From Antedon mediterranea (taxonomy: Eukaryota; Echinodermata; Crinoidea; Comatulida; Antedonidae): DNA of 64,000 nucleotides. Both the position numbers and the translations under genes were made by a program. Location of the stretch: positions 6,978,922 to 7,042,921 of the forward strand of contig NC_092678.1 of NCBI RefSeq assembly GCF_964355755.1. Reading direction: 5' to 3'. The notes under the pieces were generated by a model that was not told where the DNA came from, made no database searches, and was given only the letters and a program-made list of their open reading frames with translations. Of the stretch, positions 8,012-53,149 are shown piece by piece; positions within the stretch are counted from its first letter, which is position 1, and the number at the start of each line of letters is the position of its first letter.

Positions 8012-11000
8012 TCAGCTTCGAAGATTGCATTTATTTGTAACCATCCTAAAGTACCCATCTTCATTCATCTGTACAAGTTTATTATATTCATCCGGTATAT
8101 TATGAATTGTTTTAAACCCAAATTTAATTTCCGATGCATAGTGATATGTAAGGTTTCTTCCATCAGGTGCAATGCTGAAAGGATAAAATCCATACAGTGA
8201 TATCATATCGCAATACGGTAAAGCTGCAGTGTACAAAAACAGTCCAGATGAAGGGCCATTGGTCAAGTTGAAAAACCTGCAGAAAAATACAATATTACCG
8301 TACTTTATAAATAATGTATGCCTAAATTTGGAATATTTTAATGAATTACTTATTTTGTTACGGGTGCATCCTGTTTTTAGTAAAATATTGTATTTTGTAC
8401 TGATTATACAATTTTCCTTCCTTTCTTCTCTCACTTTTGGAGTAATTTTTTTAAAGTAGATTTACTCCGCATATACAGAAAATGTAAAGAGAAAAATATC
8501 TTACCTTTTTATCGGGTTTGACAGGTATTTGAATGGATAAGCTAGTGATATATTCACCAAATTGTGTCTTGCAAAAAAATTTAGCACCTCAAAATGCTCA
8601 AAAGGTGTAACGTTACGCACTTTAGAAAACCAAAGTATGGCATTTTTTAACTCTTTTAATCTTTGCAAACCATACGGAGAATTACAGACGCCATTATATT
8701 TTCTCATGCAGGCCCGAAATTTTCTTCTTGCTGCGTTATTTACAGACATTATGTTCGTTTTGTTTCCAACATCATTTGCAAAATCTTTTATAGGAGCCAT
8801 GTTTGATCTCATCACAAAGTCATGAGCGTCAATTTCAGAGCCACACCCACTGCTTCGAAGAATTCCGCCATTGCCGACTACTGCGCATGTGCGATGCCGA
8901 GAAAGTTTCTCTCCTACTCTGTCAATATACTTGCCGTATTGTCTAGCCTCTACCATCTGATCCAAACTCGTATAGTTAACTTGTTGATGAAGAGGTATTA
9001 AAATATTTGATGCAAAAATGTTAGCTTTGGCCCTGTGACAAAAATGATTGAAAATGATGCATAAATTATTTATATTCAAATATTCAAATTGATCAATTAA
9101 TTGTGATTGGATACAGAATACTTAAAATACATCATTAAAAAGGTTTAAAAAGATAAAAAGATAAACAAATACAGTTTTTTAAATTAATGCATTTTTGATT
9201 CAATTGGATATAACAATATATAGAATACATCAGAATCAATAAAAAGTCGTGAGGTAATTTCCCGATTGATCGTAATCAAAACGGTACTGGGTTTGGTCTA
9301 CTAGCGTTCCTGCTCCCAACCAGTACATCCATTCATAGAAGCCTTAATGAAGTAAGCCTACCTGGTGGTGGCCATAGAACGGTTCCGAGATAACGACTAT
9401 ACTTCGGCTTTAGTCGATAGAAGATTGAATAAATTGTTAGAGATAGAGTATACGATGTTATGATTATGTGTAGATATGTGATTTGTTCTTTTTATTCAAA
9501 TGATGTTATGTATTTAATAAATTTGTTATATCAATTAATTAAATTATCGTAGATTGCATAGGCCTATTATGCGATAAATATTATTTAATACATTTTTTGG
9601 ATATATTATTATTATTATTATAATATTAATAAAAAGATATTTGTTAGTATAAATTTAAAAATATAGATATAAAGAAGAAAAGCAACGAGATTATGGAGCG
9701 GCTGTACCAGAATATACAACACTAAGTATTGTAAAGTTAATATATTAAAAATTTAGGCGATCTTGTCAATATATAGAATACATTGGAATCAATAAAAAGT
9801 TCGATAAACAAGTTAGTGTAAAATATTATATAATAGTGTGTACCAAAGTTGGTGATGATTGATGATGATGACTTTATTATTATCATTGATGATTGTTATT
9901 ATTATCATTATTATTATGGTCTCTTTTGGCACTTTTTAGTGACTTAAATTATTGTATACTTTTATCATTATTTTATTATTGGCCAGAAAATGTGTTCTGT
10001 CGTGAAATGTGTTTTATTTAGAAGAAATTTTATAAACATGCATTGTGCTACATTGTGGTGCAGCCTCATGTTTACGGAATGTAGAATTCTTGTATGAATT
10101 ATTACAAAATCAATATAATAATGGCCTGATGTGTGTAGACTTAATTCAAGTGAAAATATTTTAGTGTTTACGATTATAGACAACGTCTTATATAAGTCAA
10201 AGATGCTCTGCAGGTAAAATCTTAACCTGAGATGAGTAGGTCCTATAGTAGTAGTAGTAATTAGTCACTACAGTTTTTTTAATACATTTATACGTAATTT
10301 TACTTTCTATGGACCAGAGAGATTCCAAAATAAAAGATTGAATGAATGACTGAATGAAATATTAATATTACGAATTTAAAGAGAAATAATTTTACTAATT
10401 TTAAACTTCTTATTGCTCGTTGGTAACCAAATAAATATTATTATTATTATTGGTTTTTTTAAATTTACTTGCAATACTTTAGTAACTTTAATAAACAATG
10501 TCCTCATAAAACCTAATATTTGCGCGCACACACACATACACACAAAACCTGTTCACCATGGCTGATATCAATCTTAAATCCAATTATCTTTCTACATATA
10601 TAAATTAAATGACAGGATAAGCAATGTGTTTTTTATTTTAATGTACAATGATTAATGGAGAAATAAATGTACGTATTTTTCTATATCAAGTATTAGATAT
10701 ACAAACATAAATAAACTAAATAACACATTTTTGTCATTGAATTCAAGTAAGTACAGGCCTATTTAGATAAACTTATTATTATTCAAAGTAATCTTAAGAG
10801 GGATCTTAATACTGTGGATATCGTTTCTTCGTGAGGTAATTTTCCGATTGATTGTAATCAAAACGGTCCTGGGTATGGTCTACTAGCTTTTCTGCTCCCA
10901 ACCAGTACATCCATTCATAGAAGCCTTAATGAAGTAAGCCTACCTGGTGGTGACCATAGAATGGTCCCGAGATAACGACTATACTTCGGCTTTAGTCGAT

Positions 11001-13635
11001 AGAAGATTGAAAAAATTGTTAGAGATAGAGTATACGATGTTTCATTATGTATAGATGTGTGATTTGTTCTGTTATTCAAATGATGTTCTGCATAAGGAAA
11101 CGGAAATCAATTAATTTAGTTATCGTAGATTGTATATTATGCGATAAATATTATGTTTGTTTTCGTTATGTATTCTTAACACTTTGACTGCCAGAGGTTT
11201 TTTTCAGTTAGAAACTGCCACCGCCAGCGTTTTTAGCTCAATTGCCCGATGTTTTTATTAAAGCTGATTGAAACTATGTGATCTAATTTATATGTAATTT
11301 AGACTAAAATAATCATAAAGATTTTAGCTTTATTTGCCCTTACGTAAATTTATATATAGATGCTCTTTCAATTATTGGTATTCCCTCACTTGAGGAAAGA
11401 AGGGATCTACCTACACTTGCTTTTGGCAATAGTTTGCTGAAATATGATGAATTCAGAGATATGCTCCCCCCGTATTACAAACCCTCGAGTTTAAAGACTG
11501 AGAGATATAGAAAGTTCAGATTTTAATTAAGCATCATAGTGTATTTGATAAATATAAAAATAAATAAATAAACTTACCGTAAGTCGAATAACTTGGCTAA
11601 ATCAATGGTTTTATTAAATTCAGTTTCAAGTAATTCCTTCATGGTTCTCCTCGGCGGCTCACCAGTTACAAACGACCTGTGAATACAATCTTGATAACAT
11701 AATATTGACTAAAACAATCTTGTAGGCACGTTTCCAATTAAAGTACAAATGCATTCGATTCTATAAAGGTAACTTACTCACTATTAACGTTATCCCCCCC
11801 CCCCCCCCCATCCACTATTACAAACCCTCGAGAACTTTGAGATCTAATCATTGGCTTGAAATTCCAAAATTTAAAACTGAGAGATATAGAAAGTCCAGAT
11901 TTTAAATAAGCATCATGCTGTATTTGATTTTTAAATAATTAACTAGCATGTACTTGATCCAATTTTACTTTTGTTTTCCTCATGTGCAATAAGGAACTCT
12001 CAATTTATGAATTTTAATCACTTTTTTGCTGTGGTTGATTTTCCTTTTACTTTTGTATGACTTTTTCGTGTTTGATTGTTTGTTGTATTCATTTGTATTA
12101 CTATAATGTATTGAAATTTATCTATGTTAATGTTTTGATGTTTTTGTGTACTTGTTATACTGATTTTATGTAAATGCAATACTTTCAGCTTCTGCTGCAT
12201 TTTGTATATATATACATGGTTTTTTTTATACCGAAATAAATAAATAAATAAACTTACCGTGAGTCGAATACCTTGGCTAAATCAATGGTTTTATTAAATT
12301 CAGTTTCAAGTAATTTCTTCATGGTTCTCCTCGGCGGCTCACCAGTTACAAACGATCTGTGAATACAAACTTGATAACATGATATTGACTAAAGCAATCT
12401 AGTAGGCACGTTTCCAATTAAAGTACAAATGCATTCGATTCTATAAAGGTAACTTACTCACTATTAACATTATCTGCCCCTAGACCAGTGTAGTAGATAT
12501 AGGACAATCACTTATAAGGTCCCAACTTGGAAAAATGAAGTATTGGGAGACTATATGAAAGCATGACCAAGCAAAAAGTGTGTGGTATATTTAAACAAGA
12601 AATATTTCTTACAAAAACGCTGCTAGCTTATTGAAAAATATTTTTTATTTCAAATGTTTTTGAATGTGTCATTTTATTGTCACATAGGCCGAATAGTTAT
12701 TTTAGATGAAAAAATGTAATTTAAAGCAACAAATACTTAAATTGTCTGTCAGACAATGGTTTTTGGGTTTCTGTTATATGTGAATAAATATTATTTTTTG
12801 TTACAGAAGTGAATAATCAATTTCTGTCACTTTAGTTAATTTTATTGCTAAGGTCAAGTCTGGGGTCACTTCATCACCCTAGATATTTCAAGTGGGAAGT
12901 ATCCTATTACAAACACAAACTTTAATGGACTGTTTCGATAATAATTCAATGAATATCTGACAGTGAATTACAGTCAAAAGTCAGTATTTCAGTCAAATGG
13001 GACTCACAAATACCAGAAATGCTTTGGGATTTGTAATTTTAGCATGACATGTCCTAATAGACTCTTTTCCCAGACGTTTTTTGGGTCTAGCAGCTGGAAA
13101 TCTATAAATTATAGTGCAGTTTCCATTTTCGCAAAATTGTCCTAATGGGACGTAGCGGGCTAGAGCAGCAGCGTGAAAAAATTCAATCAAGCATAATTTT
13201 ATAATTACACAACGATACAAACAATGGGTACTGTACACAGGCCTAGATGGCAGGTACCATAAGAGTGGAATATGCCGCGTGTGTGCATTGTGTTGGCGAC
13301 GTAATTTTTGACCTACTATAGTGCCAGGGTTGTATGTAACTCACAACACTTTACTTCATTCCCTAAGTCTCAAATGAGACAAGCACAATAAAATAGTTTA
13401 TCCAGCCATAATCGAGTTAATCGCTGTTGGATGCGTAAGAAATAAACAAAATTACAATGAGCTCATAATTTAAAAGATCTTTATTAATCAGATTTGTTTT
13501 TACTAACCTTGAGAAATACGTTCTGTCTATGTATTTTATACTTGTTTTGGATAAATGTAATAGGGTGAATGCAGTTGCCAATATGGAAAAACTTGTTAGA
13601 AACGTTAACAAGGTGATCGTCCGTTGTCTAAACAT
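8012..13635 (-). CDS. Alpha-2,8-sialyltransferase-like (ST8Sia family), with duplicated stem exon
   Basis: Exons are 13635-13508 (signal anchor, [20 protein letters not shown]), stem exon b 12356-12258, stem exon a 11676-11578, motif L exon 9032-8505 and motif S exon 8276-8012. All junctions are GT-AG and phase 2. With one stem exon the protein is 339 aa; with both it would be 372 aa. Motif L has [12 protein letters not shown] and [13 protein letters not shown]. Motif S has [15 protein letters not shown]. Motif III is near TYHY, and motif VS is HNIPDE, keeping the catalytic-type His and the Glu five residues on. GT29 enzymes transfer sialic acid from CMP-sialic acid in the Golgi; the linkage made here is inferred from family resemblance. 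Most GT29 proteins are of similar length. Confidence 0.87.
9033..11577. other. Intron 2 of the 8.0-13.6 kb gene
   Basis: This is a long AT-rich intron. It contains two direct copies of a roughly 300-bp block (9247-9560 and 10830-11160), a TAGGCCTA at 9559-9566, trinucleotide ATT runs near 9605 and 9890, a CACACA run near 10530 and a GATGATGAT patch near 9860. The counterpart intron at 28351-30174 has only one copy of the block. No additional exon is seen. Confidence 0.75.
11578..11676 (-). other. Stem exon copy a of the 8.0-13.6 kb gene
   Basis: A 99-nt exon between a CTGTGAAT-type (complement TTCACAG) acceptor and a GTAAG donor. It encodes a segment ending [13 protein letters not shown]. 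It is phase 2 at both ends, so inclusion or skipping keeps frame. It is closest to the single stem exon of the paralog at 30175-30273. Confidence 0.8.
11940..12245 (+). mobile_element. LINE-like 3' UTR/tail fragment
   Basis: A T-rich stretch ending GGTTTTTTTTATACC, then GAAATAAATAAATAAATA. The same kind of 3' end is at about 49600-49775. There is no coding part. Assignment to a LINE rests on the tail structure only. Confidence 0.4.
12258..12356 (-). other. Stem exon copy b (tandem duplicate)
   Basis: This is a second 99-nt exon, about 680 bp from copy a, with intact acceptor and donor and the segment [13 protein letters not shown]. Similarity extends into both flanks (about 11460-11800 against 11870-11935 and 12230-12480), so a genomic segment was duplicated. 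Between the copies lies a LINE-like 3' tail (11940-12245) ending in an AATAAATA run. Confidence 0.8.
12357..13507. other. Intron 1 of the 8.0-13.6 kb gene
   Basis: Mostly unique AT-rich intron, nearly identical to 30274-31410. At about 13330-13445 it carries an old plus-strand copy of the body of the SINE at 13859-14097, recognisable by the CCCTAAGTCTCAAATGAGAC and CGCTGTTGGATG blocks. No further exon was recognised. Confidence 0.7.
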
Positions 13636-16757: not shown

Positions 16758-16844
16758 CTGAATAACATGAATTAGCGGTATTAAAAGAGAGAGTCTAATA
16801 GGCCACGATGTCCAAAAGCAGTGACATTTTATTAAATTTAACAA

Positions 16845-18366: not shown

Positions 18367-21300
18367 TTAGGCGTCAAATATTATGCCATTTTGGTTAATT
18401 AATTGTCGTTGAAGGACGCATTTATTCGTAACCATTCTTAAATATTTTTCTTTCTTTATCTCGATAAGTTTCTTATATTCACTCGGCATTTTATGAGAGT
18501 TGTTAAATGAAAATCTGGATTTCCCATCATAGTGAAATTTAATTTTTCGTCCATCAGGTGCAATGCCAAATGGATAAAATCCATACAGTGATATCATATC
18601 GCAAAACTGCACGGCTGCAGTGTACAAATATAGGCCGGATGAAATTTTATCTTTTATGTTCCAGAAGCTGAAAAAAAAAATTGAGATGTTGTAGGCTTAT
18701 TCATATTCATATTCATTTATTATCCAGAAAAAATAATACAAAAACAATACAAAAAGCATATATAACATAGAACAACAACAAGCAGAGAAAAAGCGCAGAA
18801 CACTATCCTGGCGGATTGTCAAAAAGCAAAAAATATCGCTATAAAAGACTCTCCTGATAGTGCTGGTGGCAAAATAACATTAACAAGGATAAACATTTAA
18901 CAACCCGGTAACATAGAATTTATATAAAACAGAATAAAAATTGCAATCATTATAAATAAACATGTCTGTTATATATACCGGAATCTCATCCCACATCCGT
19001 GGAAATGAAATAAAAACAGAATAAAAAAAAGCATTAGTACGAGACTTCTCATGTCTGAAAACAAGTTTCTCACTTCTACGTTCAACAGGTTTAGGTAGCA
19101 AAGCACCATCAATTAGGAAATCTGTACAGAGGCACTTCACAACAAATTTAACACGGATGAATTTAAGTCTATTATAAATCGTGGGTAATTTTAGAGTCCG
19201 TAACCTTTGTTCGTATGACGGCCGCATGTCATAATCCATGTGAAAAAAACGTGGGAAGCATGATCGTGTAAAGCGTCTCTGAACAGATTCAATCTGATTG
19301 ATGGTGCTTTGCAGAAATGGAAACCAGACAGGTGAAGCGTATTCAATTACAGGCCTAATGATAGACTTAAATAATTTAGGAAAAACGGTCTGATCATTGG
19401 TTCTAACACACCTCTTAATAAATCCTACAAGTTTATTGCATTTACCAGTAGTCAGAGAGATGTGTTTATTCCACTTCAAATCTGAAGACAAGGTAACACC
19501 AAGATACTTGTATTCTGTTACACTTTCTAGTACTTTATTATCAATTTCATAATGAAAATACTGTTTTACTTTCGATCTAGAGATCGACATAACCTTACAT
19601 TTACTGTTATTTAGAGACATATAATTATCATTGCCCCATAGGGATATGGCAGTTAGATCGTCTTGAAGCTTCAAACAATCATCTTGATTATTTATTACTC
19701 TGAACAACACAGTATCATCTGCATATAATGCAATATTTGAGTTAACTACAATACTTTTGGCTTAAGCCAAACTACAATACTTTTTCATAATTTTCTAGGC
19801 CATGTCAATCGCAATTTTGAGTGGCGCAAGTTTTCTTAAGGAGACTGGCAAGCTTTCAAATACTAACAACTTAGACCTTCGCTTGAAATGAAATGCCTGC
19901 ATTTTTAGCTTGACTTGTCATTCCTATCCTTTCAAATCACTTTACGCCTAATGCATTGCATTTAGATACAGTTTTCTCATAAGAGAAAAAATAGTTCTAA
20001 CTCTGTCAGTAAGCTAGCCTCATCAGTAAACTACTACCCTGCTAATGTCTGGGCATCATCGTCAGACATTTACCCACACACCAAAATATAGACAACGTCA
20101 TCTCTTACCTTTGTAGATTATCCGCTAAACGTGTAAATGGATAAGCAATTGAAATATCCAAGTTTGCTGTGTCAAAATAATGAATAAGCTCAAAATGTTT
20201 AGTAGTGTGTGGTCTAGATTCCTTAGAAAACCACAAAATAACATTTTGAAACTCTCTTAATCTTTCCAAATTATACCTTGGATCACAGATACTATTATTT
20301 GTAATGCATCTTTGCAAAAATGCCATTGACTCCTCCTGATTGGCAGACATTATGTTCGTTTTGTGTCCAACATCATTTACAAATTCTTTTATAGGAGCCA
20401 TGTTTGATCTCATCACAAAGTCATGAGCGTCGATTTCAGAGCCACATCCACTGTTCAGAAGAATTCCCCCATTGCCGACTACTGCGCATGTGCGATGCCG
20501 AGAAATTGTCTTTCCTTTTTTGTGTAGATATTTGTAAAAATGAGTAGCCTTTCTGAATTGTAGCAAATTCGAATATTTTCCACGTTGAATAAAAGGTATT
20601 AAGACACTTGAATTGAATTCCTTCGTTTTTTGCCTGTGAGTAAAGTATAAATATATTATCCTTAGTACATTGTTCTTGGCTATATAATATAACAGATATT
20701 GCCTTTTATATCTTATATTTAACCTCTAAGCAGTCAATATCTGTATACACTTGAATTGAATTCCTTCGTTTTTTGCCTGTGAGTAAAGTATAAATATATT
20801 ATCCTTAGTAAATTCTTGCCATGTTGATGACAATGTTGAAATAATATTCGTCTAGGCCTATCCTTTATGTATTTTGTTAACGTAAAACTACTTTTTTTAC
20901 ATTTTACTTTTTTATTATTTGTTCTTCTTTCTAACAAACAATGCTAAGCGCAATTTGCAGGCTGACTATAACATTTACAATTAAAATTCAACAAAGGTAA
21001 AAAATAATGATTTAATTCAAAACACGTAAAAATTGAGAATGACTAGTTATAAATATCCAATGAATTGCTTGATAAAAGGCAGAAATTGTAAAACGACGAC
21101 GAAAGTTAACCGAAAACACAGTTTTTACAAACCTTAATACGACGACAAAATTATTATTAATTATTTAGGCAAAAGATTCAAATTAAACAAAAGACGGCGC
21201 AAGAAGAAAATATAAAATCGTTAAAACGAAAAAGAGGTTTACAACCAAGATTATGAAGAGGCAAATTAAGGTAAAAATACGAAGCAAGATCACAATCAAA

Positions 21301-24769: not shown

Positions 24770-26365
24770 ATGTCATGGTATAGTTCAAAAGTATCAGGGA
24801 CAGGTTGTATAAAATGTTCAACAGATGCAATTATCAATAAGTCTGCTGAAAGATATTAAGAGACGACAATTGAAACGACCACGACTATAGGGCCTATTTT
24901 ATGTTATAGGCCTACCTTAGTTTAGTTTGCAGTTTATGGGCGCATGCTTTGTTTGAGCATGGAGGTACATGTACGTGGAAATAAAAACCAATTGAAGTTG
25001 ACCAACCCTCCCATTCAGGGATGATGAGTTCCGGGATGTCAAGTAGAGAAGCCCTTCATGGTCCCACACTGGCTAAGGGGGAAGCTTGATTATCTAATTG
25101 TATAATAATAATAATTTAAATATTTTGAATAATAACGTAGTTTTTTATTCTCAATTTTATATAAATCAAAAAGTTAAAATTAATAAATTAAACAGTGTAT
25201 AGCATGGTATAAACATGGATATCAAGTAGATCAGCAGTGAAGTCAACTGATACAATGTATTTGTCAATGACAGAAAACAGCTACAATAACACAACATACA
25301 CAATGGTGCTGACATTTATTGACTTTAAAAAGCATCACATGAGATACATAGAATATAAAAACATAACACCTAGATATATCTATAGAATCTAACATAAAAT
25401 ACCTGTATTTGATACCGTGATCAAAGCCTGCGTATAGGCTTAATAATAATTGAAAATATAGGCCTACCCTTATGTTATATTAGAAATGTGAATTAACGGG
25501 TTTTCTAAAAGCAAATAAATAAATAAAAAGCGTAATGTTGACAGAGGGGTATAAAAGGCATTCAAAATGCGTACTTACTGTTTTGAAGGAAACTTATAAC
25601 TTAAAACAAAATAAATACTCTGACAACGGTACGGTATTGAAATATTGTGCTGTGTTGAATCACAAAAATCACAACAAAATAAAGACAAAAGTAAGTCATG
25701 GAAGAGTGAAAAGTCATCGGAGCTAATACGATCCAGACAATTCTTATCGAACTCTCGTCATGCAAAAACACAAAGAGGGATTTAATGGCAGTATTATGCA
25801 ATGCACGTTACGGGTTTAGCTTTGCACTTGGCTTTTCTGAGCTGACACCGTAATAGAGGTCACCGGGTCAGATTTACCTGAAAGAACTTTAAACATGAAT
25901 ACACCTCATATTAATTCCTTTCAATTATTTTATTGATAAAGTCAATAGGTCAAAGGTCATTCAACCACTGAACTATCTGTGGGAGTGCACCCAGCTTTAT
26001 TATTTTTTATCTTTCTGGTTTTACGTTTTATTTCTATATTATTTGTACTTCATGGTACTTGAGAGGCCTTAATAAGTTAAAGGTCAAATGTCAAATGACA
26101 GGGTTCATGTTAACATTGAACATGATTGTCTTTTCGTTTGTGTAGAGAAATAGTAGAAAAAAAGATAGTAGAGACTACCAATTATACAATTCTTAATTTC
26201 AGTTGGACGAATATTTTCATACAGCTTAAATAAAACTGTTTAAATATTTCAAATTTTTATTTTTTATATAAATGCATTTAATAGTGACAATTATGAACAT
26301 TTCAAATTGCACTCGTGAAATACACGCGCATATGTTACTTTTCGTTTTTGTTCAAAATTTTTTCG
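24770..26365. other. Intergenic DNA, right-duplication counterpart of 5362-6950
   Basis: No gene is seen. It differs from the left copy mainly by point changes and by one insertion that makes TAGGCCTA at 25459-25466. Confidence 0.75.
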
Positions 26366-26452: not shown

Positions 26453-27251
26453 TGTTATGTGTGCATATTACACCAAACTCTCACCCACAACTTTGTAGTG
26501 TGCAGTCTATTTACACTTAGAACTAATAACAACAATTAAAAATAATTATATATATATATATATATATTTTCCTGGGAAATTTTATGTAGGGGAATTTTAC
26601 AGTAGGCGGAGGTTTGTACTCTCGGAGTACCCTCTAGTTTAAAATGTATTTCTGTTTTGCGTGATTTGAACAATTTAGTCAATTTGAAATGGTGAGGATT
26701 TTTTTTTTGTCAGCCACCCCTATTAAGGAGGAACCTCTATTGTATTAAGAAGACACATGTTGTCTCGAAGGTGTCCCATTAAAAGGGGTCAAGGGTAGGC
26801 CTACTATAAGTATTCAACTTTCTATCAAAAGGTTTATATTACCGTAGGCTTAAATGTGCCTTAGGCCTACATTGTGTATTTACGAAATGTGTTCTAAGCT
26901 CAAACTAGTGTTTATTTACTAGGCATTATCCATTTTCAGTATTGACTGAGAATTTAAGAATATTGATATACCAAATTTTAATACTACGCCACTTTCGATT
27001 TTCGTAAATTTCTAACCGATTCGAGCCAAAGCTGTCAGTAGATACAGTCTAACCTACTATCGCAAGTCAGATACGTGTCTAGCTGTAATATATACTTCGA
27101 GTAAAGTATTTCATTGACAACGAGTGGGTCACACTTCCTAAATTACTTCTTAAAATGTTGATCTTTTTACACACAAAAACTCAAGTGCAATCAAGACAGC
27201 CGAAAAGAGAAAAGTAATGTAAGTTTTTTAAACTAAAAAGTGCTGGATAAT
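26453..27251. other. Intergenic DNA, no gene seen
   Basis: This is the counterpart of 7038-7836, with a short TA run (26546-26566) and two TAGGCCTA octamers. Confidence 0.7.
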
Positions 27252-27426: not shown

Positions 27427-30400
27427 TCAGCTTCGAAGATTGCATTTATTTGTAACCATCCTAAAGTACCCATCTTCATTCATCTGTACAAGTTTATTAT
27501 ATTCATCCGGTATATTATGAATTGTTTTAAACCCAAATTTAATTTCCGATGCATAGTGATATGAAAGGTTTCTTCCATCAGGTGCAATGCTGAAAGGATA
27601 AAATCCATACAGTGATATCATATCGCAATACGGTAAAGCTGCAGTGTACAAAAACAGTCCAGATGAAGGGCCATTGGTCAAGTTGAAAAACCTGCAGAAA
27701 AATACAATATTACTGTACTTTATAAATAATGTATGCCTAAATTTGGAATATTGTAATGAATTACTTAATAGTACATTTACTCCGCATATACAGAAAATGT
27801 AAAGAGAAAAATATCTTACCTTTGTATCGGGTTTGACAGGTATTTGAATGGATAAGCTAGTGATATATTCACCAAATTGTGTCTTGCAAAAAAATTTAGC
27901 ACCTCAAAATGCTCAAAAGGTGTAACGTCACGTACTTTAGAAAACCAAAGTATGGCATTTTTTAACTCTTTTAATCTTTGCAAACCATACGAAGAATTAC
28001 AGACGCCATTATATTTTCTCATGCAGGCCCGAAATTCTCTTCTTGCTGCGTTATTTACAGACATTATGCTCGTTTTGTTTCCAACATCATTTACAAATTC
28101 TTTTATAGGAGCCATGTTTGATCTCATCACAAAGTCATGAGCGTCGATTTCAGATCCACATCCACTGCTTCGAAGAATTCCGCCATTGCCGACTACTGCG
28201 CATGTGCGATGCCAAGAAAGTTTCTCTACTGCTCTGCCCTCAATATACTTGCCGTAATGTCTAACCTTTACCATCTGTTTCAAACTCGTATATTTAATTT
28301 GTTGATGAAGAGGTATTAAAATATTTGATGCAAAAATTTTAGCTTTGTCCCTATGACAAAAAAGATCGAAAAATGATGTTTGTTACAAGCATAAATTATT
28401 TATATTCAAATGTTTCAATTGTTCAGATTGCAATCAATTAATTGTGATAGGATATGACACAATACTTAAAATACATCATTTAAAAGGTTTAAACAGATAA
28501 AAAGTTAAACAAATACAGTTTTTTAAATCAATGTATTGTTGAGACAGTTGGATATAACAATACAGACATCGAAATCAATAACAAGTTTGATAAACAAGTA
28601 AGTTTAAAATATTATATAATAGTGTGTACCAAAGTTGGTGAAGAATGTCCTTGCTTTTTCCGTCTTAACTTCTGGTAAAGCAAAAGCAATCATCGATAGT
28701 GTCATCATCATCATCATTGTCGTCATTATTATTATTGATCAATATGATAATGGCCTGATGTGTGTAGACTTAATTCAAGTAAAAATGTTTTAGTGTCAAC
28801 GATTATATTATATAAGTCAATTATGCTCTCCAGGTAAAATCTTATCCTGAGATGAGTAGTTCATAGTAGTCACTACAGTTTTTTTTAAATACATTTTACT
28901 TTCTATGGACCTGAGAGATTCCAAAATAAAAGATTGAATGAATGAATGAATTATTAATATTACGAATTTAAAGAGAAATAAATGTATCCTTATTACTTTA
29001 CTAATTTTAAAATTCTTATTGCTCGTTGGTAACCAAATAAATATTATTATTATTATTGGTTTTTTTAAATTTACTTGCAATACTTTAGTAACTTTAATGT
29101 CCTCATAAAACCTAATATTTGCGCGCACACACACATACACACAAAACCTGTTCACCATGGCTGATATCAATCTTAAATCCAATTATCTTTCTACATATAT
29201 AAATTAAATGACAGGATAAGCAATGTGTTTTTTATTTTAATGTACAATGATTAATGGAGAAATAAATGTACCGGTACGTATTTTGCTATATCAGATATAC
29301 AAACCTAAACAAACTAAATAACACATTTTTGTCATTGAATTCAAGTAAGTACAGGCCTATTTAGATAAACTTATTATTATTCAAAGTAATCTTAAGTGGG
29401 ATCTTAATACTGTGGATATCGTTTCTTCGTGAGGTAATTTTCCGATTGATCGTAATCAAAACGATCCTGGGTGTGGTCTACTAGCTTTTCTGCTCCCAAC
29501 CAGTAGGCCTACATCCATTCATAGAAGCCTTAATGAAGTAAGCCTACCTGGTGGTGACCATAGAATGGTCCCGAGATAACGACTATACTTCGGCTTTAGT
29601 TGATAGAAGATTGAAAAAATTGTTAGAGATAGAGTATACGATGTTTGATTATGTATAGATGTGTGATTTGTTCTGTTATTCAAATGATGTTCTGCATAAG
29701 GAAACGAAAATCAATTAATTAAGTTATCGTAGATTGTATATTATGCGATAAATATTATGTTTGTTTTCGTTATGTATTCTTAACACTGCCAGAGGTTTTT
29801 TCAGTTAGAAACTGCCACCGCCAGCGTTTTTAGCTCAATTGCCCGATGTTTTTATTAAAGCTGATTGAAACTATGTGATCTAATTTATATGTAATTTAGA
29901 CTAAAATAATCATAAAGATTTTAGCTTTATTTGCCCTTACGTAAATTTATATATAGATGCTCTTTCAATTATTGGTATTCCCTCACTTGAGGAAAGAAGG
30001 GATCTACCTACACTTGCTTTTGGCAATAGTTTGCTGAAATATGATGAATTCAGAGATATGCTCTCCCCGTATTACAAACCCTCGAGTTTAAAGACTGAGA
30101 GATATAGAAAGTTCAGATTTTAATTAAGCATCATACTGTATTTGATAAATATAAAAATAAATAAATAAACTTACCGTAAGTCGAATAACTTGGCTAAATC
30201 AATGGTTTTATTAAATTCAGTTTCAAGTAATTCCTTCATGGTTCTCCTCGGCGGCTCACCAGTTACAAACGACCTGTGAATACAAACTTGATAACATAAT
30301 ATTGACTAAAGCAATCTAGTAGGCACGTTTCCAATTAAAGTACAAATGCATTCGATTCTATAAAGGTAACTTACTCACTATTAACATTATCTGCCCCTAG

Positions 30401-33513: not shown

Positions 33514-34020
33514 GAGAGGTTTCGCAATATTACGAATACGATAACGAAAACGGATACGTCACGCACACGTATTCGTTTTCGTAAGCCATAAAAAAAATCA
33601 GTTTCGCATGGCAACGAAATATTGAGGCGCGTCCAGAATATGACTGCGGTAAATTTGAGCGAAGCGCAGGTACGTGTTGCTTGGTGCTTGGCTGCCTAGG
33701 CCTAGCGTAACATCAAAGCGAATGAGAACTTTAAAAACTGCTATTTATCAAAATTGACCTGGCATTTTAGTAAATTACTTTAGTAAACTACTTTCAATAA
33801 AAGTATAATTATATTATAATCATGAATCATTCCTGATTCAAATGCAAAATGTGCAAAATAGATCAAAAACTATACTCGTTTTGTAGTCACGAATATGACT
33901 TGTGATATTCGTCAACACGAATACGCTTTACGAATATGAAATGGGGATCAGCTCAAAAGTTTCACAAATGTATGACGTATCCGTTTTCGTTATCGTACTC
34001 GTAAGGTTGTGAAACCTCCC
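33514..34020. mobile_element. MITE with about 50-bp TIRs and TA target site
   Basis: The left end GAGAGGTTTCGCAATATTAC and the complement of the right end GGGAGGTTTCACAACCTTAC pair over about 50 bp, including a shared GATAACGAAAACGGATACGT core. TA flanks both sides (33512-33513 and 34021-34022), consistent with the Tc1/mariner group. No ORF is present. Confidence 0.8.
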
Positions 34021-34420
34021 TATTGTTGCAAAAACAAAAATATTTTAACACAATTATATACCATAGTAGTCACAATTAGTATTAAAAGGATAGGACACTT
34101 TTTAAGTCTCAACGGCTAGTCGTTGATGGTTATTGAGATAATCAAAATGTATTGCCAATAGTCAAAACAGGCATTTCCGGTCATTTTTTTGTTTAACTTT
34201 TCCATTTAGGCCTAAGTGAATATAAATATGGCTCTTCTGAGTATTTTGACACCAAATTGTTTACTTACACCAACTGGTTGTCAAAATATTGTTACGATTG
34301 CAGCCATTTTGAAAAATTGCCCGATCGGGTTGAAGCAGACTGCGGAAACCCGGTCACTTTTATTATGTTGTTCCAGACAAAAATTCAGCTTTAGCATATT
34401 TATTTCTACCTTAAATCCCT
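34021..34420. other. Intergenic DNA, no gene seen
   Basis: AT-rich, with one TAGGCCTA near 34207. A short open frame at 34216-34431 has no recognisable motif. Confidence 0.5.
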
Positions 34421-35140: not shown

Positions 35141-35462
35141 TTATTTAATAAGAAAACATCTTCGATCGATAACAAACAATGCTGTGCAAAGAAGCGTAAC
35201 CAGTGGTAATAACAATAACAGCATAAATGTATTCATTTTAATTCAATTAAATACCTTCAACAAGTGTATATACAAAATATAAATACAATACAAAAACTCA
35301 AGCGCTTCGTGTTCGATTATATATAAATAATATATGGATCATAAAAACGCATACAAAACATAGGCCTATAAAAAAAACTTGAACAAATATAGGTCATAGT
35401 ATAAAAAAAATGTGATGCTTCGGTTGTATCAACAAATCACAGTACTCTCTTTAGCTGTCAAG

Positions 35463-38136
35463 CAGTGGTGGCACCAGCGGGGGGGCTACGGGGGCTCTAG
35501 CCCCCTCGTCGAGGAGCCTAGCCCCCCCCCCCCTTTTTGTCGGAGAATATAATATACAGTAAAAAACGTTCGCGTTCACTTCATATAGCTTCAGCGCCTA
35601 GAAAACCACGACGTGGGGAGTACGTCAGAGGGCTATTATGCACTTTTATGCATTCATTTATTGCCAGCGATCTAACTTACTACTAAACATTAGCTAGGTA
35701 CGCACTTGTCTGGCGGTATCCCTTTGTACGAATCGTTCAACGTTGGGTCGAGACGCGTGATATCAAGTTCCTTCCAGGGACCAAAATGTGTAATGTAGTT
35801 ATTTTCCAGGCAAAGTTTACCGACGGTTACCGAAGGGAACACGGGTACCTTTTGTGGGTGTCACGAAACCTACGATCACGAAAGCTAAGACCCCCTAAGA
35901 CCTAAGATCACGAAAGCTAAGACCCAACACCTAAGATTACAAATTCTAAGATATACTACAGCTTAAAAACAATACTTGTTTATCCATACATAATTTTAAA
36001 TACAGTAGGTTTCATTTATTACCATAAATATAATTTAATACCACCGCAAAACATTTAGATAAACTCACATTATTTTCGCCCGTTGAGTAAATGTATATTT
36101 TTTCTTTACAACAAACAAACTTGACGGGATGTTTGTTTGTATATATTTACTCCATTGTGTTGGTTCAGAGGATGTTTTTCTTACGCACCTGCCTTTCTTG
36201 TATTTTGACTCCAAATTTGTTGACTAACTTTATCCTGAACACCACACTTTAAAATTAGGACTTATAAGTACTTTCAGAAGGAGAAACACATAATAACAAA
36301 TAAATAAATCCTTCAAATTTATGATTTTACAGATGTGTTTCTTTGTATACTGTAATGTAACTCCTCGAGCTCCCCATCCTCAATGTTTTTGTTTCTATGG
36401 AGCGCCAAAAGAGCAACAATAATAGTACAAGTATAAAAACAGAAAGAAAACGAAACAAAAAAACTTATCATGATTTTTTAATTAAAATTTATTTGCCAGT
36501 ATTTATTTCCTCGTACTTGCATGATTATACTATTATCATTACAATTTTAATTTTACATTGTTCTATCCACACTGTAGATGGACTCCACAGAGTTTTCAGC
36601 CTTCTATATAATTTTTGCTCTTTTGACGTTCCATAGAAACAAAAACATTGAACATGGGGGGTAGGCCTACTGTACTGTAGGCTAGTCATTTTGTGTGCGA
36701 GAAAAACGTCTGTAAAATCATCAATTTAAAAATGTATTTGTTACTTTTTATGATGATTCTTTTTCATGAAAGTGCCAATTCTAAGGTGTGGTATTCAGAA
36801 TAAATGTTGGGAGTTAAAATACAAGGCAGGTGCGAAAGATAAATATTTGTAACCTTAGGTCTTGGGTCTTAGCTTTCGTGATCTTAGGTCTTAGGGGGTC
36901 TTAGTTTTCGTGGTCTTAGGTTTCGTGACACCCTACTTTTTGTCGGGGAATATAATATACAGTAAAAAGCGTTCGCGTTCACTTCGTAGCTAGCTTCAGC
37001 GCCTAGAAAACCGCGACGTTTCATTGACCGTGAGAGTAGGCCTACGTCAGAGTGATATGCACTTTATATGCATTCATTATTGCCAGCGATCTAACTTACT
37101 ACTAAACAATAGCTAGGTTCGCACTTGTCTGGCGGTATCCCTTTGTACGAATCGTTCAACGTTGGGTCGAGACGCGTGATATCATGTTCCATCCAGGGAC
37201 CAAAATGTGTACCGTAGTTATTTTCCAGGCGAAGTTTACTGACGGTTACGTCGTGCACTGCGTCGACGTACGCTACACTACAGCAAAAACGAATTACGTT
37301 AATTGTTCGTATGTTCACCAATTTTTTTTTACAAGTAACCTTCTGTACCGTGGGGCACCTAAAATAACTTGTTCATCCATTACTAAACAAAAAAACATGC
37401 CATTTTCGCTTAGCCAACATCTTATTATAGCTAAGTTATTACATTTTCAATGTCCTGTATGTAATGAATTTCTCACCACTCGGAAGTCCAGATGGTACGC
37501 ACGCATACACTTGGGAGGAATAAACTTATTTGCCCGACTGAAAAAGGTCTACGCTTGCGTTTTTTAAGCCTCTAGGCCTGATTTTTCCGAAGTATAAAAT
37601 GCAATTTTTTGAAGACCTGCAGTTCTAGTTTTAAACAGTTTCTTAGCTCAGCCCCAACAATAAAGCTGGTCATATTTCGAAGTACAAGAAGTGCATTTTC
37701 CGGGACCTAACATCTCTATTTTTCAAACATTTCTTAGCTCAGTCACAACCTCTTGATAGGGACTTGATATATTTTGTTTCATGTTTTGAAGTATAATAAG
37801 TCCAATTTCCGGGACCTCCAACTCTATTTTTCTAAATTTTCTTTGAACTTTTATTTTTTAAATTGAAAAATATGGATTAAAACAGTCATCGCGCATCGTT
37901 TTTTTGCACGCAGTATCTTATTTATGCATTATAAAAAATGGAAAAAATGGCTACCCTAAATCTGATTAAAATGACCTCAAATGACGCTAGAACGCGTTGC
38001 TTCCGGGGGCTTCGCCCCCTGGACCCCCACCAGGGACCCTTGGCGGCCCCCAGCCTAGTGATGCTCGCTTCGCTCGCATAGCCCCCTCGTCGGGGAATGT
38101 AGCCCCCGCGTCGGGAAGATCCTGGCGCCACCCCTG
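35463..38136. mobile_element. hAT-type DNA transposon, non-autonomous, composite, 2674 bp
   Basis: The ends are inverted repeats (CAGTGGTGGCACCAG and, on the complement of the right end, CAGGGGTGGCGCCAG). They are flanked by an exact 8-bp duplication CTGTCAAG (35455-35462 and 38137-38144); both features are standard for the hAT superfamily. No transposase domain is recognisable; the open frame at 37184-37567 has no hAT signature. Inside are two direct copies of a roughly 300-bp segment (35531-35845 and 36937-37250) separated by a nested MITE (35856-36933). Confidence 0.88.
35856..36933. mobile_element. Fold-back MITE nested in the hAT element, 1078 bp
   Basis: Terminal inverted repeats of about 80 bp start GGGTGTCACGAAACCTA and contain repeated CACGAAAGCTAAGACC units. 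Further in, more inverted matches appear (CACCTGCCTTTCTTGTATTT near 36187 against 36810-36835, and CAATGTTTTTGTTTCTATGG near 36383 against 36633-36655). Much of the element could therefore fold into one long hairpin. No clear target duplication is visible. Confidence 0.82.
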
Positions 38137-41150: not shown

Positions 41151-41500
41151 AAGCTTGGTTCCCACTAGCGACGCAACATAAGCAAATGCCCTTCCAATAA
41201 TTGTGTTTTTCCCCACCTGCGGGAAATCAAACCTGCATGGTTTCTACGTTAGCGTGACGTAGACTTTGACCTGGTTCGTACCTTTGAGTACGCCCTATAG
41301 GCCTACTATGTTTTCCAGTGTTCTTTTGCCTTGCCTTTGTTGCGTGAAATCAAGCTGATTTGATTTCCCGTAGCGATATTTGCAGCACTGTTGCGTCATC
41401 GGTTCCCACTTTTGATTACGCAATACAACACTTTGCGTCGATACGTCGCTGCGTTACGTTGCGTTCTAGTAGCAACCACGCTGTAGCGACTCTTATTTGT
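41151..41500. mobile_element. Degenerate MITE, GACGCAACGCAA family
   Basis: It starts AAGCTTGGTTCCCACTAGCG, which matches the family terminus, and has scattered TGCGTC/GACGTA repeats plus GCGTTACGTTGCGTTCTAG at the far end. Unrelated sequence appears to lie in the middle. Confidence 0.5.
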
Positions 41501-41822
41501 GATTACGCAATACTTTGATACATCGGTGGCTTCTGGGTTGCTAGCTTCGCTTGCACGCCCCCACCCCCACCTCCAAATACTTCTAGATCCGCCCTTGTAG
41601 GCCTATTCTATAATGTTAAGTTGAGTTTTACGTCAAAATAAATTCCGGCTGCGAGTGGCCGGCCTTCAAGTTGCAACAATTCACGAGAGCATTTTTTTCT
41701 ATATCATGCCTCGCATGGAACAATTAGTGTGCGGAAACTCCAACACACATGTATGTGTATCATATTGATAACATAAATTATTTATCTATTTAATATATTT
41801 CACCATTAATTACGTCTGTTTT

Positions 41823-43652: not shown

Positions 43653-43656
43653 CTAG
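43650..43656 (+). promoter_or_regulatory. Predicted stop-codon readthrough site between gag and pol
   Basis: The gag stop reads TGA CTA G. The UGA CUA context is a known efficient readthrough signal in viral and animal mRNAs. Gag and pol are in the same frame with no start codon needed, so readthrough is the simplest way to make Gag-Pol. Confidence 0.65.
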
Positions 43657-47522: not shown

Positions 47523-50500
47523 TCAAAGCACGCACTTATTCGTAACCATTCTAAGATATCCTTCGTCGTTCATCTTTACAAGTTTCTTATATTCACTCGG
47601 CATATTATGTGAGTTGTTAAACGAAAATCTGGATTTCCCATCATAGTGATATGTAAGGTTTCTTCCATCAGGTGCAATGCCAAAAGGATAAAATCCGTAC
47701 AATGATATCATATCACAAAAAGGCACGGCTGCCGTGTACAAAAACAGGCCGGATGAAGGGGCTGTTATGTTCCAAAATCTGAAAAATATAAGAAAGATTT
47801 TTAGTAATTCGGCTTATGAAAGATTATTAAAGAACCAATGCAAAGATTTAAACGCAACTTTTCGACGTAAAATCTCGTAAGGAAATAATCCTGCGTGTCT
47901 TAAAGCTTGGTTCACCCGCAAAATGTCGTTCAGCTTGTGTGAAGCTTGGTTCGCACGAGGACGCAAAAATGACGTAGAAAACGGGCTTTACGACGCCTTC
48001 TATTTTATAGAATATCTGTAAGTTAAAGAGCGTTGGATGTAAGTTTTAACTTGGCAACGCTACAAGAACAATATTAGGCCTAACTTTATTGATTGGTCAC
48101 CGGTTTATCAACAATTAAGACTACCCTACTACTGGTTAATCCTAACACAAATATACTATACAATAATGATAACAAGATAACCATCTTACGTGTTTAAATT
48201 GTGATAAAACTGCTTATGCGGATAAGCAATTGAAACATTCAAGTTGTTTCTGCTAAAAAAATGAAGAAACTCAAAGTATCTTTCAGTTCGTGGAGTATAT
48301 TCTTTAGAAAACCAAAGAACTGCACCTTTAAACTCTCTTAATCTTTCTAAACCACACTTTGACTTCCATAGCTCATAATTTTCGTGTTTTTTCCCCTGGA
48401 TGTACCAATGTAGAAATTTTGTGGATTCACGATTTACAGACATTATATTCGTTTTGTTTCCAACATCATTTACAAACTCTTTTATTGGAGCCATGTTTGA
48501 TCTCATTACAAAGTCATGAGCGTCGATTTCAGAGCCACATCCACTGTTCAGAAGAATTCCACCATTGCCGACTACTGCGCATGTGCGATAGCGAGTAATA
48601 ATTTGTATTGTTTTTCCAACATACTTGCCATAATGAGTAACTTTTCTGAATTCTCTCAGATTCTTAAATTTACCATGTTTATGAAAAGGTGTTAACAAAC
48701 CAAACTCCAGTTTATTTGCTTCCGCTCTGTGAATGAAATAAAAATGATTATAAATGGGACATGCATGTCACAGACATACTTTCTAAGGCATCTCGAAAGA
48801 TGTTTGCTTTATTTGTGATGAGGAAATCTGGCGCATCTGTGGATGTGGATGACCTGATCAAGGTGTTCTGTTAGACCTACTCTTGAGTATGCATACCCTG
48901 TGTGGCATGGCGCAATTACTAAAAAATTTGCACAAAAAATTGAAGCTGTTCAAAAAAGAACTCTACTATCCTAGGGAAAATTATTTATCGTACGATTTAG
49001 CTTTAGAGGAGACGCAACTCCTTTCGCTTGCGGCAAGGAGGGAAAGTCTGGTCCTTTCCTTTAGTCAGGGTCTCATAAAATCGTCTTTGCACAGGGATAT
49101 GCTCCCTCCTTGCCGCAAGCAAAAATTAAACCTTAGATCCAAAGGTGGAAATCTGGAAGTGCCTAAATGTAAAATCGACAGATATAAACGGTCTGCTGTA
49201 CCTTATATTGTTAAGCTGCTTTACTCTTAATAAAATGCACTCTATAGTTCACTTTGTCGGTCGGTCGGTCTGTCTGTCGGTCCGGTATCACTATGTGTTT
49301 TAGCACGCGACTTATGGCGGTTGGCCTTGTTATGTTTTAAATAACTTTTGATGTTTACGGTTTAAATATTTTCTTTTTTTTTTGGAGCGACCTTTTTTAT
49401 TTGTTTTACTTGATGGACATTATGCATGTAATATTGGATTCTTCTAAGTAAATAAATACATACATTTAAATTAATACTATTGTATATATTGCTAAAAATA
49501 AATTAAAACCTTGATAAATATATTTAAAATACTAGTGAACCTAATTAATGATACTTTGTACTGATAAAATGAATGAAGAAATTATCTATTTTTATGACAT
49601 TGCAATATTGTTCTATTGCATAAATTTTAAATGGTTAATGTACAGTATATTTATATTTTATGCATATTGTACATTTTTCTGTAATCTGTAACTTTTTAAT
49701 ATATATACTACAATCATTTCAGACTTGTTCTGCTTTTTGTAATGTTTTTTTATATACCTGAATAATAAATAACACACTGATTGCATTAGCAAATTGATTG
49801 GTTAATTACGTATCACGTGTCATGTGACTGCTCTATTTTCAACTCGGCCCTGCCTCGTTAAACAAAGAGAATTCACTTTTTTTTCAACTCATGAAATATT
49901 CTGACCTTCCAACTCTTTTAAACATTCATAATATTATACTATCGAAAAGCTTCAGCTTATACACATGCGTAGGGAATGATTTGGAATATGTAAACATGAA
50001 TACGCATGCGTATAAGCTAAATCTTTCGATTCCATCTTTGTCTCTTCGATCAAATAAAATAAAAAATAATTTTATATATTTATCTATTACTTATGTTTGT
50101 GTTTCGATTATACTAGAAAGGTAGGCCAATTTGGATTTGCTAAAGTGTTTAGGATGTAAATTGTACCGAACTATTGTATACCCATTCGGTATTAGCTCGA
50201 CAATTCAATCATGTGAAATTTAACCATTACAGTATTCACAGGTAGGTTATTAAAAATGATAATTATTGCAATAGAAACATGAAATTCGGATGATAAATCG
50301 AATGACATAATACGATCGACCATTTCTTTAAAAAAGTAAATATCTAAAAAAGCAATGGAGCTCAAACTTACCTTAAGTTGAATATCTTAACTAAATCAAT
50401 GGTTTTATTAAGTTCATTTTCAACTAATTCCTTCGTGGATCTCCTCGGTGTTTTAGCAGTTGGCAGATATCTGTAAATAACATGAATTAGTGGTATTAAA

Positions 50501-51317
50501 TAGAGACAGTCTAATAGGCCACGATGTTGAGAAGCAGTGAAAAATGTCTCTGGTCAAAAACTAAATAAAAACAGTACAACTAAATCGCGACGGCAATTAA
50601 TCTGCAACTAAGTGCACAATTAACAGTAGGGACCATTTCTACTGCAACTAAGTGCTCAATCAACACCAGGGACCATCTTTACTGCAACTAAGTGCACAAT
50701 CAAAAGTAGGGACCATTTCTACTGCAACTAAGTTCACAATTTACAATAGGGACCATCTCTACAGCAACTAAGTTCATAATTAACAATAGTGACCTTCTCT
50801 ACTGCAAATAAGTTCACAGTTAACACTAGGGACCATCTCAACCGCAAGTAAGTTCATAATTAACAATAGGGACCGTCTCTACTGCAACTACGTGCACGGT
50901 TAACATCTATTGCAATTAAGTTGTTCCGAACCAATGGTGCTTCGGGAAAACCCTTTAAAACTAAATTTAAGGCGTATATTTTCGGAATGAATAAGATAAG
51001 GGCACATAATTTATAGCAAAGACCTTTTCGGACATGGAATATGTGATTAAATTATAAAATAAATCATAAAAGAATATATATGAAAGAATCAGATTGGTAA
51101 AGTAGAGTTTATAATATTTAGGTACAGTATATGTAATGATACCTTGTTCCATTTTAAGCCAGTGACTAAGATATGTTTCTACTAACCTTTGATAATACTG
51201 TCTGCTTATGTGTATGTTGTCGTTATATTTTGACGACCATAATAGAGTGAATGCAGTTACCAGTACAGAGAAGCTTATTAGAAACGTAAACAGGGTAATT
51301 GTCTTTTGTGTAACCAT
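47523..51317 (-). CDS. Alpha-2,8-sialyltransferase-like (ST8Sia family), 340 aa
   Basis: Exons 51317-51187, 50470-50372, 48726-48190 and 47778-47523 total 1023 nt, in frame at all phase 2 GT-AG junctions. The start is the ATG at 51317 ([20 protein letters not shown]), because the frame upstream has no ATG. Residues about 6-28 are the signal anchor. The stem exon ends [13 protein letters not shown]. Motif L is [18 protein letters not shown] with [12 protein letters not shown]; motif S is [15 protein letters not shown] with LYGFYPF; then TYHYDGK (motif III), HNMPSE (motif VS) and the NKCVL end. Predicted Golgi enzyme; donor CMP-sialic acid by family, acceptor unknown. It belongs to the ILLNSGCG subgroup with the 346-aa gene. 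Confidence 0.9.
47904..47990. mobile_element. Partial MITE, GACGCAACGCAA family, in intron 3
   Basis: Two AAGCTTGGTTC starts in tandem, followed by GAGGACGCAAAAATGACGTAG. It is truncated and degenerate. Confidence 0.45.
48840..49231 (+). mobile_element. Non-LTR RT C-terminal fragment in intron 2
   Basis: With one frameshift, the plus strand reads [20 protein letters not shown] and [10 protein letters not shown], then [30 protein letters not shown] and [17 protein letters not shown] with a stop. This is the standard thumb/C-terminus of a non-LTR reverse transcriptase. It lies antisense to the host gene. Confidence 0.8.
49239..49329 (+). mobile_element. Solo terminal repeat of the GTCGCGT-hairpin family
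   Basis: Only one terminus is present: CTCTATAGTTCACTTTGTCGG, the GTCGGTCTGTCT run, CCGGTATCACTATG and AGCACGCGACTTATGGC...GGCCTTG, with TTA following (49330-49332). Its structure equals the right terminal repeat at 32481-32609. Confidence 0.75.
49330..50371. other. Remainder of intron 2, 47.5-51.3 kb gene
   Basis: It contains a LINE-like 3' tail (about 49600-49775, ending TATACCTGAATAATAAATAA) and sequence shared with 16240-16650. No exon was recognised. Confidence 0.6.
50590..50910. repeat. Intronic minisatellite, about 43-bp unit
   Basis: Seven or so units with TAGGGACCATCTCTACTGCA occur in intron 1 of the 340-aa gene, homologous to 16845-17245. Confidence 0.9.
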
Positions 51318-53149
51318 TATCAACGGTTTTCAAATTTCAATACAGGCCTAAATAATAAAATCATGAAAGCTTTTATTGAACAATATATTATACAGTAAAT
51401 ACTGAATAGCGAATAACAGTTTATCAATATACAAAACATATTTCTCGACAGCGATTGCCATAGGAGAGAAAGATTATAAGCCTGTAAAATTTTAAAATAA
51501 TAACAATATGAATTCCAATTTGTATAATCATTTCACGACACTGTGGATATTTGATTCTTCAACTACATGCCGTTTCACTAAGGGTCACGTCCTGTCTGTG
51601 CTTAATTCTACAGCGCTCTCCTTCTTTCTACGACAGCGATTATGTGAACTACAGTAGTAGACCTACTACCCTACCGATACTCGTCTCGAAAGATTGTAGC
51701 CTACTAGGCCCGCTACTAGGTTCATTGAAGTTCACACCAGCATTCTGGGCTTTCCAGGTAAATAGTCTTTATCCAAAAAGACTCGTTAGCCAGCCAACCT
51801 AAAAAAAACCATGGAAAACCGCAAGTTCTCGGCCACTCAAATAGCAACAAAAATGTCCTTTAGATAGTAAGTATTTTATATTATAACCATTGAACAACAT
51901 CATCTATATTTGCCAAAAATGTAACATATATGAATGATTTTTTTGGAGAGCACATTACAAAGTGATTTTACCTAATACCAGTAGGCTACCTCTGTTTAAG
52001 AAAGCACAGTGTGCAGCCGATACGCTGCTGGCATTGCGCCCAGTAGGCTACCATAGGCAAATTATGTACATTACAATCGTCCCAGGGCCGAATCGTCCCG
52101 CTACCATGAACACAACATGTTTAAATCCAGTCAAATTATAATTATAAACCTATTTATTTATATAGGGTAACTTTCAACATGACCGTTCATTAGTCAACAA
52201 TTTTGAATAATTTAGTAAATCATGTAAGCCTACCACGATCACCACCAACCGAAAATGACACGACTGCCTATTAATACAGTCTACTACTGCGCACACCACC
52301 ACCCACTAGTCTAGTTCCGTTTAAACTGAATATTTACAGAATAATACAATGATGTTTACAGAAAAGTGACCAACGTAAAAACATCCTAAAGCTGCATTCA
52401 CACTAGTTAAATCGTGTATGTTAGGCCTATTCCGTTTTGTGAAGTGTAACTGTAGCTTTATAAAGAACGTGACTTACCGGTGTTTTAAGATATGATACTT
52501 ATTGCTTTTTAAAATACAGTACAACAACTCAAATAAGAAAATCAGTTGAAGCATATACTAGTCTGGCATGATGCACATACAGTACAGTACACAGACACAA
52601 AAAACCACCATAATGCGTATTATTCATCGCAGCATTTGTTGGTCTTTGTATTCTTCAGCTATTAATCAATAACGTTTTTACAAAAAAAAAAAAAACCTTG
52701 CTAGAGGCAGTAAGTAAACAATGGTTCTGTATAGTAATTTTGTTTTTCATATTGAATGAGTGTTTATTTGAGTACGTTGTGTTCCTTAAACAAATAATAA
52801 ACGCCACTCAAAGAAACGCTTCCCTCGTGTAAAAAGCCCACGAAAGAAAAATAATACTGTATAATTAACGACCAGACGTTTTCAAAGCCTTATTTTATAT
52901 TGATTTACTCAGTTTTAAATTAATCATTTAAGTAAGTTGGATTACCACCAAGATAAACTCTATATTATTGTGATCATTTCGAAGCATGCTGGTCGTCGGG
53001 TGCGTTAATCATCATCATTTATAGTTTTTTTATAATTACAACATGTTTGAGTTTCTTTAGATGTTCGAGGGGAGGGGCTGCCTAAATGTAAGTCTACTGG
53101 AAAAGCCCATAGGATTGCACTCGTGAAATACACGTGAACATCCTGCTTA
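51318..53149. other. Intergenic DNA between two sialyltransferase loci
   Basis: Positions 51318-52070 show no recognised element or gene; a short frame at 51551-51802 has no motif. Positions 52075-52900 are paralogous to 46080-46860, with one extra TAGGCCTA at 52432-52439. Positions 52900-53149 are gene 3' flank. Confidence 0.65.

Follow-up and report, generated by a model that had tools for sequence, protein, structure and literature searches.

Why does one eight-base palindrome, TAGGCCTA, recur at TA dinucleotides in a stretch of crinoid DNA, and what put it there? The stretch is a 64,000-nucleotide piece of the Antedon mediterranea genome (assembly GCF_964355755.1, contig NC_092678.1, positions 6,978,922 to 7,042,921), referred to here as the window; coordinates without a further label are those of the window. 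An original prediction, made from the letters alone, held that GGCC is recurrently inserted at TA and suggested that the octamer is the excision footprint of a Tc1/mariner-like element. The insertions are real, and TAGGCCTA is likely the excision scar of a TA-targeting transposon, whose source element was not found in the sample searched.

The window contains 25 exact copies of TAGGCCTA, in agreement with an earlier by-eye count of roughly 25–30 where fewer than one would be expected; dinucleotide-preserving shuffles gave a mean of 0.38 and a maximum of 2. Among the eight-base palindromes of the window it ranks third, behind TATATATA and ATATATAT. Across the genome (354.4 Mb in 18 contigs, with C1 to C11 of 22–41 Mb each) it occurs 128,596 times and the reversed string 1,587 times, making it about eighty times commoner. 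Base composition or dinucleotide bias, which the original prediction had proposed to check by such a count, is ruled out as the cause of the excess by the shuffles together with the reversed-string count. Further counts refer to a sample made up of the window and stretches fetched from the genome (L numbers), about 256–260 kb or <0.1% of the genome; L024 was omitted from most of these counts and L012 from several. Of the 16 words of the form XYGGCCXY, TAGGCCTA alone shows a large excess in the sample (86 vs. 2.83 expected), the next highest being TTGGCCTT (8 vs. 4.3) and GCGGCCGC (2 vs. 0.24).

Paralogous copies reveal how individual octamers arose. Alignable relatives were available for 32 of the 92 sample octamers: 19 share the octamer with their relatives (for 14, the copies are 100% identical), six have a plain TA in every listed relative, and seven are ambiguous. 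Five of the six TA-only cases lie in the window, at 9559..9566 (TA in both listed relatives, 11072–11154 and 29676–29758), 25459..25466 (TA in 5980–6121, 15823–15920 and L020), 29504..29511 (TA in 10836–10977 and 9254–9395), 37037..37044 (TA in 35564–35695 and L029) and 52422..52429 (TA in its one relative, 46394–46474); the sixth, at L015 2111, also has a single TA-only relative, so that 9559, 25459, 29504 and 37037 are the cases with two or more. Four of these paralogue contrasts (9559, 25459, 29504 and 52422) had been predicted and all proved right when relatives were aligned, including the third copy lacking the octamer at the first three, for which we found two, three and two TA-only relatives, respectively; the fourth octamer had been placed ten bases too far along, at 52432–52439. 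The ambiguous cases are the octamer in a repeat at 34207..34214, which four L016 copies lack in an imperfect alignment, four octamers in an inverted repeat of L009, L020 8010 and L025 7412.

The state of the partner copy also varies with identity. When octamers and partners were binned by identity (one octamer can fall in several bins), partners at ≥98% identity shared the octamer in 10 cases and had TA in one. Below 98%, TA was found in eight, the octamer in four, a two-letter mutant in one and other states in seven (AC twice; TAGGGC, TAG, ATA, TATA and one longer string once each), five further rows with badly aligned flanks being set aside.

The direction of change is indicated by a TA-flanked miniature inverted-repeat transposable element (MITE) at 33514..34020, which carries TAGGCCTA at 33697..33704 as part of its family sequence and not as an independent insertion. 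A pattern open to 0–8 bases at this place matches 409 copies of the family, and among the 100 of these listed, 91 have the exact octamer, eight have substitutions, one has an extra base and none shows a precise six-base loss. Loss is therefore rare in the MITE family, and the TA-only relatives described above most plausibly preserve the older state.

Insertions of this kind also stand out among all indels of their length. In 498 blastn paralogue pairs from the sample (L024 omitted) we listed 47 six-base indels, a comparison the original prediction had called for; ten of them turn TA into TA...TA, and TAGGCCTA accounts for eight of the ten. Eight of the 32 five-base indels do likewise, seven of them with TACAGTA or TACTGTA as the longer form, from roughly four independent sites. 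One six-base insertion at 29272 reads TACCGGTA and perhaps represents a further footprint family. That GGCC and a second TA are repeatedly gained at single TAs is thus confirmed.

Once gained, the octamers appear to decay by single substitutions. The 12 classes of one-letter neighbours of TAGGCCTA occur 140 times vs. 67.4 expected, an excess of 73 next to an excess of 83 for the exact octamer (sample without L034 and the window duplicate 21704–27767), and three classes produced by transitions, CAGGCCTA, TAAGCCTA and TAGACCTA, reach 4.1, 3.6 and 2.8 times expectation. This ratio of neighbours to exact copies would fit steady gain with neutral decay better than a single recent burst; if 1e-9 substitutions per site per year are assumed, rough reckoning asks for only about one scar to be fixed every thousand years. 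Point mutation as the main route to TAGGCCTA is ruled out by the partner look-ups, the neighbour counts and the insertion assay described below. The same data bear on selection for a regulatory-protein binding site, as has been argued for TACATGTA in Phytophthora (PMC3520976). The palindromic form, the abundance and a dense cluster in what appears by eye to be a first intron in L019 are what such a site might look like, but the octamer originates by a six-base insertion and its one-letter neighbours build up as under neutral decay, and we regard this explanation as extremely improbable.

To read inserts at one TA directly, we used a dispersed TA-flanked repeat with ends AAGATGTATTGTCC, found in both orientations in L010, L012, L014 and L015 and genome-wide. 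Copies with exact flanks at the conserved end TAAAGATGTATTGTCC were collected wherever 3–8 extra bases lay between TAAAGATGTA and TTGTCCC, and the complete list has 87 copies. The inserts are CTGTA (22), GGCCTA (15), CAGTA (13), C(C/G)GTA (4), GCCTA (3), one each of CAGCTGTA, GGCCCTA, GGCCTATA and GGCATA, 11 tandem duplications, and others. The commonest at this TA are therefore C(A/T)GTA (35/87), listed in Table 1 of PMC3878927 as what Sleeping Beauty and Frog Prince leave on excision, and GGCCTA (15/87). By length, GGCCTA makes up 15 of the 21 six-base inserts and C(A/T)GTA 35 of the 46 five-base inserts. The four C(C/G)GTA inserts are perhaps another footprint family.

The gain is specific to the TA. 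A control position, a few bases from this TA, yielded 65 rows; 28 of these were assay loci read differently and were set aside. The 37 other inserts there contain no GGCC, and five of them (TGCAC, TTTAC and three TATAC) resemble CTGTA at the assayed TA in copies with one changed letter. GGCCTA is 15 of 21 six-base inserts at the TA vs. 0 of 4 at the control (Fisher, p = 0.017), and inserts containing GGCC are 17 of 87 vs. 0 of 37 (p = 0.003), with the proviso for both tests that copies may share ancestry.

Together these observations make it probable that TAGGCCTA marks the places where a cut-and-paste DNA transposon, targeting TA, has excised. An extra copy of TA accompanies the short insert, as in Tc1/mariner-type footprints, and the minor forms GCCTA (3/87) and GGCCCTA (1/87) match what overhang repair is expected to leave in them. 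What is inferred is the transposon and, with it, how its ends read, how long its overhangs are and how the break is repaired. The element would enter at a TA, duplicating it; on excision the transposase would cut a few bases within each end, so that the flanks keep 3' tails of GG, GGC or GGCC, and the host would then rejoin both flanks. TA-GGCC-TA could come from filled-in GG tails or from annealed, self-complementary GGCC tails, two routes with the same product that cannot be told apart from TAGGCCTA. The rarer TAG(G/C)CTA (TAGGCTA and TAGCCTA; 70 in the sample vs. about 25 expected) could come from GGC tails annealed with one mismatch, and some of its copies may be octamers that have lost one base. 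C(A/T)GTA arises in the same manner, the transposase leaving CAG tails that pair with a mismatch in the middle, and the single CAGCTGTA of the assay is the form expected if both CAG tails are filled in. In the form TACWGTA, C(A/T)GTA numbers 314,048 genome-wide vs. 118,829 for the reversed control.

Several observations weigh against an excision footprint, and they concern the assay, the distribution of octamers and the search for a source. In the assay, copies with the same insert could stem from one event. GGCCTA is also scarce at two other TAs, which belong to tandem 21-bp units (TATCACTACCATATTTGGGCA) of a second dispersed repeat, with end AAGCTCTGTCTACACTATCAAACT, found in L011, L013, L014, L015, L018, L021 and L022. 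At one TA of the unit, the 100 copies shown of 115 include CAGTA 11 times, CTGTA three times, GGCCTA once and tandem duplications 43 times; at the other, the 25 copies have CTGTA six times, CAGTA twice and GGCCTA never. GGCCTA being rare where C(A/T)GTA is common, target choice or timing would have to differ between the two footprints. The two are also uncorrelated along the sequence: TAGGCCTA and TACWGTA counts correlate at −0.07 over 49 five-kb bins, and TAGGCCTA and TAGSCTA counts at 0.69.

Octamers are strongly clustered, which plain footprints do not predict. Fifteen of 66 gaps between neighbouring octamers in the sample are within 100 bp, vs. 3.3% expected, and dense groups with partial units occur at L019 6600–7310 and L009 6760–7860. 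The latter falls within a large inverted repeat (L009 6287–8332) whose arms, about 92% identical to each other, each contain octamer clusters, one arm having one extra GGCCTA. A flank preference initially seen around octamers is much weaker in 41 isolated ones. The tandem word TAGGCCTAGGCCTA is found 3,596 times genome-wide (control, 2), which appears to exceed severalfold what chance insertion into existing octamers would produce at the average per-TA rate, a surplus to be expected if insertion hot spots exist. These tandem words and the partial-unit clusters in L019 and L009 also speak for a GGCCTA unit that multiplies by slippage or cryptic-repeat growth. That process may still shape octamer clusters, but tandem words involve no more than roughly 6% of all 128,596 octamers, and single insertions occur at TAs whose relatives have no GGCC at that place; as the main origin of the octamer we consider slippage very unlikely.

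The MITE at 33514..34020 is a candidate source. As predicted, one of its ends starts with GG (GAGAGG.../GGGAGG...), and it belongs to a real TA-flanked family: the exact end word occurs 989 times genome-wide (control, 5), and the first 100 places yield 30 opposed complete pairs 427–499 bp apart. These features would suit a family that leaves GG and CC from its own ends, but 20 of the 30 listed pairs are GA/GG, eight GG/GG and two GA/GA, so that a two-nucleotide footprint should chiefly read TAGGTCTA or TAGACCTA. Together they number 19 in the sample vs. 6.7 expected, which is in line with the excesses of the other words one letter away from TAGGCCTA. Furthermore, the octamer is internal to the family (exact in 91 and altered in nine of the 100 listed copies), which makes octamers older than the spread of the MITE. 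It is therefore highly improbable that this family is the source. The original prediction thus stands in part: a Tc1/mariner-like excision footprint is the best-supported reading, given the assay and the presence of C(A/T)GTA at the same TA, and the MITE proposed as its origin finds no support.

No GG- or GGCC-ended element other than the MITE was seen in the sample, which at <0.1% of the genome could miss families numbering as many as a few thousand copies. The 281 TAGGCC sites in the sample revealed no recurrent element end save one pair inside the L009 inverted repeat, and the best 12 of 80 TA-GG...CC-TA end pairs fall either in a minisatellite of L021 or within the long inverted repeats that L009 and L016 contain. 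Among the 69 largest paralogue indels listed there is no filled site. Profile searches of the genome gave eight matches to DDE_3 and 47 to DDE_1, relatives of TA-targeting enzymes, and point to putative TA-targeting transposase genes; mariner Transposase_1 had no match in a search run without a positive control. Three of the eight Tc1-type loci were read and have no clear TA-flanked ends (best pair, 17/24 bases). Two pogo-type stretches are 99.8% identical across all 2,600 bases, so the borders of the element were not reached. A 20-mer scan of viral contigs picked out two, one with 3 octamers and one with 5; apart from a single octamer, these all lie inside the matched array.

With the source element missing from the sample, octamers clustered and GGCCTA nearly absent at two TAs rich in C(A/T)GTA, one may ask whether a host process inserts GGCCTA, for example repair of staggered breaks at TA that adds fixed bases. 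One fixed insert would not be expected of non-templated repair, however, and at the assayed TA no insert is commoner than a known transposon footprint, and the minor forms obey overhang rules; we think such a process unlikely. A bolder reading, less likely than not, is that a single ghost transposon family, whose copies are now rare or extinct, wrote about 127,000 identical scars, clustered because each scar would supply fresh TAs for further insertion; alternatively, the insertions would be due to a TA-cutting enzyme that has become independent of any element.

The window's 25 octamers are not fully independent. A recent duplication, about 98% identical, relates 1–1250 and 3510–8352 to 21704–22954 and 22951–27767, with 1251–3509 lacking a counterpart in the second copy. 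It pairs the octamers at 5498..5505 and 24907..24914, 7381..7388 and 26796..26803, and 7447..7454 and 26862..26869, and the octamer at 33697 lies inside the MITE. Those at 2875..2882, 2909..2916 and 3012..3019 form a small cluster, and that at 20853..20860 is common to L020. The remaining octamers are at 2278..2285, 35361..35368, 36662..36669, 41298..41305, 41598..41605, 48075..48082, 57415..57422 and 60688..60695.

Other features of the window include five related open frames on the minus strand (8501–9121, 20105–20725, 27816–28382, 48186–48767 and 55002–55403) with a common 26-residue motif, which resemble an alpha-2,8-sialyltransferase gene array. Open frames at 42621–44951 (plus strand) and at 3561–5178 and 23002–24587 (minus strand) resemble the gag-pol of a long terminal repeat (LTR) element and a reverse transcriptase joined to an endonuclease portion. 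Two minisatellite arrays, at 16838–17242 and 50602–50905, share a 40-bp unit built on a TAGGGACCATCTCTACTGCAA core. Elsewhere in the genome, about 5 kb following Ns in L024 (contig 18) are a GC-richer satellite of a 10-base unit, GAGTAGTTCC, and its variants, without TAGGCCTA. Inverted arms with GGCTCTTTTCAGAGCC at L030 92–835, a sequence resembling the 3' stem-loop of histone messenger RNAs, adjoin a Tc1-type transposase frame. Contig 17 was considered as a possible mitochondrion, and its first half looks nuclear.

Scars in such number would log past transposon movement even after the copies themselves have vanished, and could be used to time excisions in a natural genome. A further implication is that abundant TA-NNNN-TA palindromes need not be regulatory sites. 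When all short inserts at a single TA in a high-copy repeat are listed, a genome's excision footprints can be read off directly, an approach that could be taken with any assembly.

Full-text searches, judged by titles and abstract openings of the records listed, turned up no precedent for TAGGCCTA as a footprint, and known systems resemble it to different degrees. The Caenorhabditis elegans Tc1 footprint, given as TACATGTA in PMC3520976, is likewise an eight-base palindrome of the form TA-NNNN-TA, but unlike TAGGCCTA it is not enriched in the sample (8 vs. 12.4 expected). Harbinger elements are similar in having ends that start GGCC-like; Table 1 of PMC4423477 lists a terminal inverted repeat GG(G/C)CC and the target TAA/TTA. 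A Harbinger-type TWA duplication would give TTAGGCCTTA or TAAGGCCTAA, and this candidate was rejected, both words being absent from the sample (0.3 expected each). Minos prefers TA and leaves a 6-bp footprint, and so matches the six extra bases at TA, a likeness of length drawn from a passage that gives no footprint sequence (PMC10992017). A passage of PMC7913693 puts Tc1/mariner footprints at 2–4 bp, and one in PMC8151067 mentions a CAG footprint. Sleeping Beauty and Frog Prince also leave a short fixed insert and a second TA, and their C(A/T)GTA is itself abundant in the Antedon genome; GGCCTA differs in having six bases and in implying GG, GGC or GGCC ends. Because a published footprint of the same architecture occupies the same TA, GGCCTA looks like its sister footprint, left by an element whose ends would read GG, GGC or GGCC.

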